DNA of 34,584 nucleotides from an uncultured Methylococcaceae bacterium (GTDB lineage Bacteria > Pseudomonadota > Gammaproteobacteria > Methylococcales > Methylomonadaceae), in assembly GCA_903866825.1 (NCBI GenBank), contig CAIPPE010000258.1:1-34584 (forward strand). The letters run 5' to 3'. The position numbers and the translations under genes were made by a program. The notes beneath the pieces are model-generated. The model ran no database searches. It saw nothing but the letters and a program-made list of their open reading frames with translations, and was not told where the DNA came from. Shown one piece after another: positions 1 to 3,107 of this stretch (positions are counted from its first letter, which is position 1; the number at the start of each line of letters is the position of its first letter).

Positions 1-1
1 T

Positions 2-100
2 CGAAATTGGCAAAGAATCGAAAAGGTTCATCTTAACCCTGATAAAGCCAAAGAAGGTGATGCGAAAGATATAGATATTCAGACAAGAAAAGTAGCGTAA
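2..100 (+). CDS. 3' end of an unidentified ORF, cut by the window edge
   Basis: An open frame runs from the first bases to a TAA at 98-100 and gives 32 residues rich in Lys, Asp and Arg, ending in TRKVA. I do not recognise a family in so short a tail. It is charged and has no membrane segment. It could be the C-terminus of a real gene or a chance open frame, since 32 codons without a stop is weak evidence. Confidence 0.25.
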   Translation, partial: RNWQRIEKVHLNPDKAKEGDAKDIDIQTRKVA

Positions 101-122
101 GTCTTAACCGTCGAGGTGACAA

Positions 123-350
123 CTACATTGACAATTTCCGGGTGTTACCTGATTGGTTTCTGCATTCCCAATTGTAGCCGTATTTGTTTTCACCTAGAGA
201 AACTTTGCCATTGAAATTAGGGATACAATCTGAAGCCGATTTTATTTGAGCTTTAATGCCTTCATTAAACTTATAAAGCTGTGGCTCTCCAACTACCCCG
301 AATGATGTTAAACAAATACTGAAAAGCAATAATAGTCGATAAATGTGCAT
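123..350 (-). CDS. Small secreted/periplasmic protein of unknown function
   Basis: The 75-residue product begins with a clear signal peptide: a short basic start (MHIYR), a leucine-rich core of about 14 residues, then a likely cleavage near residues 18-22 (VVGEP). The mature part is about 55 residues, polar, with two cysteines about 23 residues apart that could form a disulfide in the periplasm. I chose the ATG at 350 because an AGGAT Shine-Dalgarno lies about 7 bases upstream and because it places the signal peptide at the true N-terminus. A longer in-frame start at 401 lies inside the CATG microsatellite and would add 17 residues in front of the signal peptide. No family is recognised. The upstream repeat could in principle affect expression. 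Confidence 0.55.
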   Translation of the reverse strand: MHIYRLLLLFSICLTSFGVVGEPQLYKFNEGIKAQIKSASDCIPNFNGKVSLGENKYGYNWECRNQSGNTRKLSM

Positions 351-382
351 TACTAATCCTAATTGGCTGTTGGTTATTTCTT

Positions 383-403
383 CATGCATGCATGCATGCA
401 TGC
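383..403. repeat. (CATG)n tetranucleotide microsatellite
   Basis: Five uninterrupted copies of the tetranucleotide CATG plus one base lie just upstream of the small exported gene on the minus strand. Tandem tetranucleotides are slippage-prone in bacteria and are a known basis of phase variation when they lie in a reading frame or promoter. Here the repeat overlaps an alternative upstream start of that frame. A functional role is inference only. Confidence 0.8.
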
Positions 404-419
404 AACTTTAAATAGAATT

Positions 420-818
420 TCTCCAGTATTTTCAGGTACGACCGAGCTCCAGCACGTAAATTTTTTGTCACTATTACTAAATATCCGACTCATCCAAATA
501 TATTCGATCATATAATCTTAAACCAATATCTTCGAAGAAACACTATCTATCATACCCAAAAAGCAAAATATCATTAGTTTAACGATTAAGTGGGGCCAGT
601 GTAAACTTGACTACATCTTAAGAGCTAAAAATTACGCATATGTAACTTAAAAAGGTTACAAACAACAGCGCTTTTAGTCCTGAACCCAATATCCATTTCC
701 AAAATTTACCAACTTAGGCATTGATCAAACTGACTAAACGGTAGTTTTTTTAAATATACTTTATTTACCTTGCAGTTTGTGTAAATAGGCCTATAGTTAT
801 TCATAAGCCTTCTGAGTG
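420..818. other. AT-rich intergenic stretch, nothing identified
   Basis: No ORF with a plausible start and ribosome site, no tRNA-like fold and no strong terminator was seen on either strand. An isolated AGCGCT at 667-672 and an AGAGCT followed by an A-tract at 621 resemble units of the array to the right but are out of its register. They may be eroded outliers. Confidence 0.5.
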
Positions 819-1345
819 TGTGCTAAGTTTAGTTAGTCGACTGATTTCTTACAGTTATGCAGCGCTCATCAAACATAATCTAGCGGTCAGCAATTATAAA
901 TTAGTTTAATCAATAATCTCTCAGCGCTAAGAATACATTGCCGAGTACTAGCCCAACCTGACTGAGTGCTAAGCTTATATTCTTTAGCCTCTAAATAAGC
1001 CTGACAGCACAGCGACCTTCCTTACTCACCACTGAGAATACAATTTAGAGTGCTCAAAAATATAATTTGAGCGCTAGATAATCACCACATCAAAGTTTTT
1101 AAGATGACCAACCGCTTAAAAATAGTTTCTCAGTACTCAAAAAGGTTGGGCTAGCGCTCAAATCACTTTTCCTGGCGCCAGGCTATCCTTTTTCACCTAT
1201 CAAGTAGTATTATTCAGTACTTCAACATAAAGCGCCAGTACTCAAAAATATTTTTATACCGGTCAAAAGTTATTATTTTTCAGATTGTCATGACTTTATA
1301 GCGCTACAAAAGTTTGCTTAAGCAGCGCAAAAGACTGGCCCAGTC
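819..1345. repeat. Array of degenerate 21-bp repeats with palindromic hexamer cores
   Basis: Hexamers of the form AGYRCT, or close relatives, recur at a 21-bp period. They begin at 819 (TGTGCT), 861 (AGCGCT), 882 (AGCGGT), 923 (AGCGCT), 944 (AGTACT), 965 (AGTGCT), 1028 (ACCACT), 1049 (AGTGCT), 1070 (AGCGCT), 1111 (ACCGCT), 1132 (AGTACT), 1153 (AGCGCT), 1174 (GGCGCC), 1216 (AGTACT), 1237 (AGTACT), 1258 (ACCGGT) and 1300 (AGCGCT). One-base slips occur near 903-923 and 1091-1111. Many cores are followed by CAAAAA-type A-tracts. The best unit is AGYRCTCAAAAATATWWTT. Later steps (1321, 1342, 1384) fit weakly. Stops interrupt all frames, so it is not a gene now. The spacing of two helical turns would put all cores on one DNA face. 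Confidence 0.8.
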
Positions 1346-1464
1346 ATTAATCGTTTCGGCTAGATGCAGAGCACCAATAGCGGGATGCTAAAAAATCATT
1401 GCAGACTGTTTATTAAGTTCTGCATTACGTCTTAAATTGATCATTAGAATGGAACTAACCTATT

Positions 1465-2154
1465 ATGAGCACCACTACATATATGCCGAGTACTGACAGT
1501 GGTAAAGCAGACTTGCTAAACCATCTGACAACCGCCTTGCCACCTTATGCCACCTTGCTGAACATTTCCGGGGACGAGTTGGCCATACTCAATAATGATA
1601 CCACCAGCTTTCGTTATACCATTCAAAGCGCTGGCGATATGCAAGCCTGCTCTAAAAGCTGGACGGCCTTTAAAAATCAGTTGCGAGATGGCACAAATGC
1701 TTCTATGAGTTTTCCAAAAACACCTATAGCGATTCAACCTGTTCCATCGGTGGTTAACGAGGGAGTTATACCTCGATTATCAGCGTTAGTCGGCCAGATT
1801 AAAGCTAATAAGAACTACACGGATGCTATTGGTAAAGATTTATGGATAATCGGTGCAACACAAGTCATTGATCCGAGTACCTGGAAACCCATTTTAAGTA
1901 TCCAGAACCAGGCCGGACATCCGATTATTGCCTGGACTAAAGGCAATGCCGCCGCAATAGAAATTTGGGTAGATCGGGGTAATGGTAATAATTTTACTCT
2001 TTTAGCCATCAATATCGAACCCAACACGCCTGATAAATGGCCTCTTCCGGCGGCAGGCAATGGTCAAGTCTGGAAATATAAAGCCATTTATTTGTTGCAT
2101 GATGAACAAGTTGGGCAATGGAGTGACGTAATCAGTGTATCTGTTGGCGGATGA
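1465..2154 (+). CDS. Conserved-type hypothetical protein with C-terminal beta-sandwich-like region
   Basis: The 229-residue product has no signal peptide or membrane segment and is probably cytoplasmic. The N-terminal ~120 residues look helical (leucine-rich, with an Ala-Ile-Pro-rich linker near 85-100). The C-terminal ~85 residues alternate hydrophobic and polar positions, with WVDRGNG and a closing W-S-D-V-I-S-V-S-V pattern that resembles a fibronectin-III-like fold. Proteins of this general design, opening with MSTT..MPSTD, occur as unnamed proteins in several Proteobacteria, often near mobile or repetitive DNA; that is from memory. It is the first gene after the 21-bp array, starting about 120 bp beyond its clear part, and has only a weak GGAAC ribosome site about 10 bases before the ATG. 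No function is assigned. Confidence 0.75.
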   Translation: MSTTTYMPSTDSGKADLLNHLTTALPPYATLLNISGDELAILNNDTTSFRYTIQSAGDMQACSKSWTAFKNQLRDGTNASMSFPKTPIAIQPVPSVVNEGVIPRLSALVGQIKANKNYTDAIGKDLWIIGATQVIDPSTWKPILSIQNQAGHPIIAWTKGNAAAIEIWVDRGNGNNFTLLAINIEPNTPDKWPLPAAGNGQVWKYKAIYLLHDEQVGQWSDVISVSVGG

Positions 2155-2162
2155 TTGCTTGG

Positions 2163-2231
2163 GTAAACCTTGACAATAAAACAGTAAGGTAGGTATGTTA
2201 TCTGGATTGTTTAATACCCTGTAAGGTTTAC
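2163..2231. repeat. Separated 9-bp inverted repeat flanking the murI promoter
   Basis: GTAAACCTT at 2163-2171 and AAGGTTTAC at 2223-2231 are perfect inverted copies 51 bp apart. The left arm touches the predicted -35 box and the right arm lies about 12 bases before the murI start. They could be a pair of operator half-sites or the base of a long weak stem. The role is unknown. Confidence 0.4.
2170..2199 (+). promoter_or_regulatory. Predicted sigma-70 promoter of murI
   Basis: A consensus -35 box TTGACA (2170-2175) is followed after 18 bp by TATGTT (2194-2199) as the -10 box. Initiation near 2206 would leave a leader of about 37 bases before the murI ATG. Confidence 0.5.
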
Positions 2232-2242
2232 GAATCAACGCA

Positions 2243-3076
2243 ATGACAAATCCGTTCCCCTCTGTTCGAACCGTCGGGGTTTTCGACTCCGGCGTCGGTG
2301 GCTTGTCCGTACTCAAAGCGATAAGAGAAAAGCACCCCACCATTGATTTTATTTACATCGCAGATTCGGGGAATGCTCCTTACGGAAGCCGATCGGCAGA
2401 ATTTATCGAAAGCCGGGCCTCTCATATAGCAGACTCCCTGATTGACGCTGGAGCAGAGATTATTGTTGTGGCATGTAACACCGCCACTGCAATAGCCGTT
2501 GCAAAGCTACGTGCAAAACTGACCGTCCCGATTGTCGCGATGGAACCCGCCATAAAACCAGCCGTCGCCCATACAAAAACCGGAGTTATCGGCGTTCTTG
2601 CCACAGAAAGAACCATAGAAAGTCCCACAGTTGCAAGACTCTGCAGGGATTTTGGTCAAGGTGTAAACATCCTTTTACAACCCTGCCCAGGCTTTGTAGA
2701 ACTGGTCGAGCGCGGCGAGCTTTCATCCGACTATACCCACGAGTATCTCCGAAAAACTGTGTCCCCGTTGATAGCCCAAGGAGCCGACACCCTCGTACTC
2801 GGCTGTACGCATTATGTCTTTTTGGAACCCGCGATACAACATATCGCTGGACCGGGAGTCCATATCATTGAATCATCTGCAGCCGTTGCTCGCCAAACCA
2901 TGCGGTATCTGGGCATTGAGAAACATATCGACCTCAGTGAGCATGCTGGTAGAGAACTGTTCTTGACTACTGGTTCACCAGAAGATGCCCAGACGATCTT
3001 TTCGCAACTCTGGGGTAGTCCGGTTGAGGTTCTGGCACTTGATAATATAAATGCTTCTTCCAGCGCCACTGGGTAA
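2243..3076 (+). CDS. murI: Glutamate racemase
   Basis: Interconverts L- and D-glutamate in the cytoplasm, supplying D-Glu for peptidoglycan. It shows the FDSGVGGLSV motif (residues 14-23), DSGNAPYG (41-48), the first catalytic cysteine in VVACNTATA (Cys78) and the second in LGCTHY (Cys188), in the order expected for the Asp/Glu racemase family. The length of 277 residues is normal. The start follows a predicted promoter closely, though no strong Shine-Dalgarno is visible. Third positions appear somewhat richer in G/C than in the following genes, which might hint at a different origin; I have not measured this. The AlkB-type gene follows after 31 bp, so the two may be co-transcribed. Confidence 0.95.
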   Translation: MTNPFPSVRTVGVFDSGVGGLSVLKAIREKHPTIDFIYIADSGNAPYGSRSAEFIESRASHIADSLIDAGAEIIVVACNTATAIAVAKLRAKLTVPIVAMEPAIKPAVAHTKTGVIGVLATERTIESPTVARLCRDFGQGVNILLQPCPGFVELVERGELSSDYTHEYLRKTVSPLIAQGADTLVLGCTHYVFLEPAIQHIAGPGVHIIESSAAVARQTMRYLGIEKHIDLSEHAGRELFLTTGSPEDAQTIFSQLWGSPVEVLALDNINASSSATG

Positions 3077-3107
3077 TGATATAAAACACATTAACGACGT
3101 CCACACC

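Follow-up and report, generated by a model that had tools for sequence, protein, structure and literature searches.

The window, by which we mean the whole stretch of DNA that was analyzed, comprises 34,584 nucleotides from an uncultured Methylococcaceae bacterium. Positions 752-2154 of the window constitute one copy of a dispersed module in which a promoter-like left end is followed by an array of approximately 520 bp and then by a gene for a 229-aa protein (Table 1). The left end matches other copies separately, with 77-86% identity, and its sequence suggests that it might serve as a promoter. A promoter scan of positions 600-2300 did not list its TTGCAG/TATAGT pair, and promoter sites are no commoner there than in shuffled sequences (5 versus 4.7). 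The leader between the array and the gene is the sole part of the query common to the G021 and G029 copies, at 73% identity. No open reading frame of 90 aa or longer lies within the array. Outside the module, a simple CATG/ATGC tetramer repeat is found at positions 383-404, where a 92-aa reverse open reading frame begins.

Table 1. Features of the module copy in the window, with the evidence for each.
Feature	Positions	Strand	Evidence
Left conserved end, promoter-like: TTGCAG (770-775), 16 nt, TATAGT (792-797) within RGYCTATAGT	752..815	+	Matches in other copies
Array on a 21-bp grid	819..1345	+	Autocorrelation, grid, base frequencies, conservation by phase
Conserved leader between array and gene	1351..1425	+	Sequence matches
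Gene for the 229-aa protein (helical N-terminal domain, C-terminal FnIII-like sandwich)	1465..2154	+	Open reading frame, predicted structure
Right module edge	2155..2165		blastn of window positions 1-3100 against murI loci of relatives

An earlier, sequence-only reading of this DNA had described the array as palindromic hexamers set on a 21-bp grid, and had named a lag-21 peak above shuffled controls as its test. Autocorrelation of positions 819-1345 shows such a peak: the identity at lag 21 is 0.381 and the highest value among 1000 first-order shuffles is 0.330 (mean 0.267, sd 0.020). Echo peaks are observed at lags 42, 63, 84, 105, and 126, identity falls close to background at lags 20 (0.276) and 22 (0.293), and side peaks at lags 64, 83, and 104 are compatible with one-base slips. 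The two slips claimed are indeed present, at 882 to 923 and at 1070 to 1111, where the step is 41 bp and not 42 bp. When 500-bp segments were taken through the 34.6-kb window in 25-bp steps, z for lag 21 exceeded 4 solely at starts 701-1201; from start 2001 on, the maximum over 1284 segments is 3.74. The raised lag-21 identity spans approximately 741-1400, with a dip at 951-1010, so the periodicity holds and its limits are wider than the extent of about 490 bp first proposed. Using the original core patterns together with AGCGGT, AGCGCA, and AGCGCC, we count 18 cores, of which 16 fall on the grid (861-1300) and 2 do not. The original patterns by themselves place 15 cores on it, slightly fewer than the 17 or more claimed. 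The count of 11 for AGCGCT, AGTACT, and AGTGCT is exact (5 + 4 + 2), and shuffles lead one to expect approximately 0.85 for the three together per copy of approximately 820 bp.

Gene-bearing copies of the module are homologous from about position 750 to 2151-2156, which is the stop of the 229-aa gene, and this places the module edges near 730-752 and 2151-2156; the flanks are unlike between most copies. Homology to the murI region of relatives starts at 2160-2165, as judged from a comparison with six murI loci out of nine found, and blastn detects no part of the module at the murI loci of these six relatives. Given that homology among copies ends at the gene stop and that murI homology resumes at 2160-2165, the promoter-like end, the array, and the gene form one unit, which may be mobile. 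A short array-like remnant was noticed by eye at the murI locus of G032 (L266).

Related arrays, for which the sequence-only reading had proposed a search, are present both in this genome and in its relatives. The array occurs in ten places in its own genome, namely in the window and in nine others with 67-71% identity; longer copies occur in three congeneric genomes, and shorter end matches in two more, such that 6 of the 61 genomes searched are positive, the genome of the window included. Array copies that lack the gene are found at C222, C143, C145, C118, C303, and C267, and at two places in relatives. The next gene is convergent at 7 of 8 such loci (about 6 distinct sites; open reading frames of at least 70 aa), and the right neighbors of gene-bearing copies show no convergent bias (35 on the plus strand, 15 on the minus strand, 40 without a call; n = 90).

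Pooling 20 units over up to 16 copies of the window's clade yields a unit consensus of approximately TTTTnY-AGYRCT-YMAAMA. Downstream of the core, A is found at 66% at +8, 42% at +9, and 59% at +11, and on the other side of the core T is found at 46-59% at -6 to -3. Since the A-rich side is mirrored by a T-rich side, the unit is a longer dyad and not a bare hexamer. Thus, the A-tracts previously noted after the cores are borne out as an enrichment for A, but they are one half of a symmetric arrangement, and the statement that conserved iterons do not extend beyond the hexamer is not quite right, because a dyad consensus of approximately 18 bp emerges when copies are pooled. Conservation in the clade depends on the phase within the unit: its variance over phases, measured in up to 16 copies, is greater than that of every one of 20,000 rotations (0/20,000). 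Within the core, the outermost bases are conserved (0.82 for the first, 0.90 for the last), the central YR step is variable (0.53 and 0.59), and as a block the hexamer ranks second among the 21 rotations for conservation. Changes at the central step are mostly transitions (0.73 versus 0.43), an excess for which CpG deamination could account in part. Of 12 full copies, 10 are 694-697 bp in length, one is 654 bp, and one (C145), whose end is non-homologous, is 709 bp. The 654-bp copy carries a two-unit deletion of 41-42 bp, the sole large indel in the homologous stretch. An argument for constraint from the rarity of indels was dropped, because the ratio of substitutions to gaps, 106:1 in the array copies, was matched by that of an unrelated repeat in the same genome (110:1).

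The 229-aa protein is predicted to contain helices at residues 11-24, 36-75, 101-114, and 120-125. AlphaFold models the whole protein with a mean pLDDT of 86 and a pTM of 0.50, and the N-terminal domain alone with a pTM of 0.71. The top Foldseek matches of the whole protein, aligned over about 100 residues, are largely FnIII-bearing, a domain content that we in part presume, and a PDB search with the helical domain gave nothing meaningful (best E 4.8). Searches of Pfam, NCBIfam, and PHROGs matched the window protein to none of their families at E ≤ 1 and the scanned members of its family to none at E ≤ 0.001; PDB chains matched these members with E values of 0.31 or more. The sequence-only reading had proposed to look for a co-occurring DNA-binding gene, and this neighbor is not evidently one, being an acidic protein with an FnIII domain (median pI 5.73 for 55 such proteins). 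There are 17 matches in the genome of the window and positives in 14 of 121 genomes of its taxonomic family, and the genome of the window is the only positive among 274 drawn evenly from the class. A subfamily scan returned records named Methylomonas, Methylobacter, Thiodictyon, Chromatiaceae, and Verrucomicrobia; one Thiodictyon MAG has 28 matches, the cultivable Methylomonas sp. LW13 has two, and 5 of 240 genomes are positive in the phylum of a Verrucomicrobia MAG.

The rhythm that is common to this family, which we call family 1, is not visible from a single window, and detecting it required the upstream regions of many loci. When the best of 50 lags was determined for 106 family-1 upstream regions from Methylococcales, Thiodictyon, and Verrucomicrobia, it was 21 or 42 bp in 94 of them (lag 21 in 64, lag 42 in 30) and another lag in the remaining 12. 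The corresponding numbers are 3 of 106 for shuffled sequences, 7 of 55 for regions far upstream, and 7 of 62 for downstream regions. These 106 regions were obtained from 129 by removing those shorter than 480 bp and then near-duplicates; they are distinct in sequence, yet related paralogues were kept, so they are not independent by descent. In the subfamily scan set (45 loci, less 4 partial and 2 too short), lag 21 is best in 23, lag 42 in 12, and another lag in 4 of the 39 used. A set from Thiodictyon and Verrucomicrobia (35 loci, less 5 too short), which includes L180 from Methylobacter KS41 and 13 of the 28 Thiodictyon matches, peaks at 21 or 42 bp in 29 of 30 cases, with z up to 23. Even for distant members with 25-40% protein identity, the upstream DNA of many loci peaks at 21 bp with unrelated letters, where upstream ends had to be extrapolated, with an error of possibly about 100 bp, if the match starts inside the protein; exceptions without a 21-bp peak include L057, L070, and L077-L079.

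While the pitch is retained, the sequence of the unit varies by locus, and where lag 42 wins, adjacent 21-mers are unlike and alternate. The proteins encoded at L200 and L206 are 86% identical, and the 5-mer cosine of their arrays is 0.00. Across pairs, the mean 5-mer similarity of the arrays is 0.26 at protein identities of at least 85% (4 pairs, one of them at 0.00) and 0.20 at 70-85%, and it is near background (0.03-0.04) below 60%. Coevolution of protein and array was rejected on the basis of this weak relationship; low array similarity beside close proteins indicates that the neighboring protein does not set the letters. As separate observations on these loci, a related collagen-like (GPPGPP) gene follows the FnIII gene at L200, L206, L211, L214, and L215 of genome G683, and a WD-rich in-frame stretch was seen by eye ahead of the usual start at L200 and L206.

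A 385,869-bp sample of the genome of the window holds further 21/42-bp arrays, and those of L220, L221, L224, and L238 lie upstream of proteins of approximately 200 aa with weak, sub-cut-off fn3 matches. This second family, which we examined in the genome of the window, has 25 matches there, of which 3 gave no tblastn match and 22 were used. Lag 21 is best upstream of 5 and lag 42 upstream of 7 (12 of 22, compared with 2 of 22 shuffled and 3 of 19 downstream regions), and 5 others peak at 40, 41, or 44 bp. Thus, the pitch is usually, not always, 21 or 42 bp. The two FnIII families are not homologous by hhalign (probability 2.5%), and therefore share architecture alone. Two strong lag-21 stretches of the sample are coding (L223:19001 and L231:1351), a 21-bp array at L223:17490-17920 is on the downstream side of a family-2 FnIII-type gene, and a 42-bp array at L239:4500-4780 lies between two convergent open reading frames without either FnIII gene; for these reasons the sample gives no clean rate. 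A long inverted repeat was noticed by eye at the left end of the 42-bp array of L220 (1743-1787).

Clear dyad symmetry above controls is present in a minority of the arrays. Phase-locked Watson-Crick dyads reach a maximum z above 5 in 31 of 87 arrays, and three control letter maps give 6, 7, and 3 of 87; the other 56 arrays fall below this threshold. Likewise, dyads over long arms are found in 34 of 106 regions, compared with 2 and 2 for the controls, and a unit consensus with at least 8 paired positions is found in 7 of 64 arrays, 17 of which could not be scored since too many positions were undetermined; two control maps each give none among the 64. The dyads differ from locus to locus, as in examples picked by eye: TTCACGTGAA (L044), GGTAAGCTTACC (L083), and arms of CCAAA and TTTGG (L204). 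A coding reading, in which 21 bp would be seven codons, leaves no signal in arrays with GC below 0.42 (n = 38), where the longest open run averages 72 codons versus 66 in shuffles, none reaches 150 codons, and the 5% level is passed by 4 of the 38. It is ambiguous in three GC-richer groups (94 versus 77, n = 30; 130 versus 101, n = 15; 152 versus 125, n = 23), in the last of which 12 of 23 arrays reach 150 codons; we put these longer runs down to repeated stop-free units.

Given the period, its link to two gene families, the phase-locked conservation in the window's clade, and the dispersion of the module, a row of phased dyads on one face of the DNA is the arrangement that would meet the facts with the fewest assumptions. 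We propose, with a probability of roughly 0.4, that the array is a platform of such sites for a putative symmetric protein that acts on the neighboring gene. The idea of a multi-site binding platform, which the sequence-only reading had raised, thus stays the best of those considered by virtue of the peak above shuffles, the related arrays, and the phase-locked conservation, with binding itself as the conjectural part. As we envision it, the array would act in cis as double-stranded DNA, with about 25 positions, many of them dyad-symmetric, pitched at 21 bp (two turns of B-DNA) over approximately 520 bp, such that repeated binding surfaces would be set on one DNA face beside the helical-domain/FnIII gene. 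A protein with two-fold symmetry, probably not the acidic 229-aa protein itself, might bind site after site to form a nucleoprotein filament, and this filament could silence, activate, or insulate the adjacent promoter and gene, so that the role would probably be one of gene regulation. Promoter, array, and gene occur together as a dispersed multi-copy module; selection would act on pitch and dyads, and letters would be replaced locus by locus through amplification of new units. Our computational analysis did not find a binding protein for the arrays. Because the arrays of L200 and L206 have unrelated 5-mers beside close proteins, one sequence-specific partner cannot serve all arrays; either the binders differ by locus or geometry outweighs sequence.

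It is unlikely, in our judgment, that the array works instead as an RNA made from the left promoter, whose string of small hairpins would bind the neighboring protein or regulate its translation. In the window's clade the array does lie between a promoter-like end and the gene, and among 20 related copies AGTGCT (46, with 5.8 expected) outnumbers AGCACT (23, with 8.6 expected), as G-U pairing would favor. Arrays also fold better than shuffles, but both strands do so alike (z -2.21 for plus and -2.38 for minus, 87 arrays), and mismatches counted over the 24 arrays of clearest dyad symmetry include about as many G.T (293) as A.C (268). Covariation was rejected as support for an RNA, since top six-pair sums in the window's clade (133 for Watson-Crick pairs) are not clearly above those of control maps (101 and 122). 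The RGYCTATAGT motif, which was picked after seeing examples, occurs on the gene strand in 17 of 106 family-1 upstream regions, at least five of which are close copies of the window, and on the opposite strand in 3 (6.5 expected). It lies at -490 or further in 11 of these 17, mostly beyond the array, and the other 6 do not fit this pattern; in family 2, all 9 regions that have it carry it on the gene side of the array, no more than 158 bp from the gene, and it occurs on the opposite strand in 4 of 22. Such placement would suit action as DNA better than action as a leader RNA. An Rfam search of ten loci gave no match at E ≤ 0.1 within an array; it returned three weak matches elsewhere and a group II intron (RF00029, E 2.1e-06) at L025:2883-2952, near an array-only copy in G032. 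A fixed pitch of 21 bases is, we reason, not expected for hairpins on flexible linkers. Taken together, the lack of strand bias, the equal mismatches, the weak covariation, and the motif placement favor DNA action over RNA. In type III toxin-antitoxin systems, an RNA of near-identical repeats with a pseudoknot binds its toxin. One account of ToxIN describes a promoter, a tandem array, and a single small gene, the same order as here, with 3 to 5.6 ToxI repeats that have a pseudoknot core and are followed by a terminator and then the RNase gene (PMC8860590). The arrays described here depart from ToxIN in that their 21-bp units number about 25 and are diverged, neither strand is favored, and the protein is FnIII-like. 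Unlike in such systems, a scan of the window placed no terminator-like site between 1345 and 1465, and where ToxN is an endoRNase, the window protein joins a helical domain to FnIII and has no match in a defence library.

A selfish or neutral tandem repeat, built upstream of genes by a copying process with a 21-bp step and then left to decay without function, is just as improbable as the RNA. It would explain why near-perfect arrays (L044, L083, L211, and L215) exist beside much-diverged ones such as that of the window, why close paralogues can have wholly different units, and why indels per substitution are no rarer than in another repeat of the genome. Conservation locked to the unit phase and a near-constant length within the clade (11 of 12 full copies at 694-697 or 654 bp) argue against it, and they likewise disfavor the highly diverged satellite that had been suggested as an alternative, as do a single pitch across three bacterial groups and two protein families and dyads in excess of controls for the neutral process. 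We consider it more improbable still that the arrays are chromosomal partition, anchoring, or replication-like sites that maintain mobile modules. Plasmid iterons and partition centromeres (parC, stb) are direct repeats at near-integral helical turns beside a gene, as the arrays are, and a row of integral-turn repeats followed by one gene is reminiscent of partition loci with a single protein; array-only copies occur, and array copies C143 and C256 each have a neighboring DnaA-box-like repeat, which is also present close to the G021 C45 gene. On the other hand, none of six recurrent groups of flanking open reading frames in short flanks resembles Rep, ParA/ParB, or ParR by eye, units differ by locus, dyads are present in part of the arrays, and one genome holds many copies, with 17 gene matches. 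No relatives of the window protein were found in a phage collection, of one subfamily protein in a plasmid collection, or of the protein in viral contigs. Least probable, and by our estimate very remote, is a guide-RNA array with very short repeats, in which the variable stretches of approximately 15 nt between cores would be guides. CRISPR arrays combine constant repeats with unique spacers, a layout whose absence the sequence-only reading had rightly noted: near-perfect arrays repeat all 21 bases and leave no room for spacers, and the window array has 38% lag-21 identity overall. In TIGR-Tas arrays, repeats of 8-12 nt are interleaved with spacers that are mostly of 9 nt, the partner is a Nop-domain protein, and repeats are conserved within a locus and variable between loci (PMC12045711), a locus-specificity that the 21-bp arrays share. 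Processed 36-nt guide RNAs are a further feature of TIGR-Tas. The 21-bp arrays differ in lacking a constant-plus-spacer layout and in an FnIII-like associated protein without a Pfam or NCBIfam match (E ≤ 1), and hence without a Nop match, and the 21-mers of two arrays are unmatched in viral contigs.

Among families of dispersed repeats, REP/BIME and MITE elements resemble the arrays in having many intergenic copies. Terminal inverted repeats and target duplication are the marks of a MITE or IS element. REP and MITE families have a common sequence, whereas distant arrays have in common their pitch and, in part, their dyads. The TAACTGA repeats of Beggiatoaceae, also from gammaproteobacteria, are described as multi-copy intergenic direct repeats, many of them upstream of start codons, in which one fixed heptamer occurs two to six times per set (PMC4679880); here it is the pitch and not the sequence that is conserved, over about 25 units. 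The multicopy sequences of Geobacter looked unrelated (PMC2700814). Among open-licence PMC papers, we found no description of an element like the one reported here. By analogy, its mode of action might resemble that of an operator array or a centromere, and we assign it to no known family.

The same rhythm in different letters before many genes suggests an undescribed class of DNA element in which geometry takes precedence over sequence. To our knowledge, conservation of pitch without sequence is unlike known repeat or operator families. Ordinary sequence search is blind to such arrays, which become visible once spacing itself is tested, and one DNA geometry links two uncharacterized multi-copy protein families, the first of which occurs in methanotrophs, Thiodictyon, and Verrucomicrobia. 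A bolder proposal, which we regard as doubtful at present, is that these arrays belong to a previously unrecognized genetic system across bacterial phyla, with dozens of modules per genome, in which each helical/FnIII gene would pair with a sequence-unique and geometrically alike dyad array at two-turn pitch ("same ruler, different barcode"), giving each paralogue its own addressable nucleoprotein scaffold. Binding and half-turn phasing are directly assayable in cultivable Methylomonas.

Two further observations concern the neighborhoods of the arrays. Downstream of the array at L027, two small open reading frames, which presumably resemble a BrnT/BrnA toxin-antitoxin pair, precede the next gene. 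Separately, a dispersed repeat of approximately 230 bp carries an inverted pair of sites (CTTATCCACAGnnnCTGTGGATAAG) that we take to be like DnaA boxes. It has 15 matches in the genome of the window, some of which are short self-inverted pieces, and is found at L002:985-1260 and at C73, C256, C207, C226, C314, and C123 of G000.
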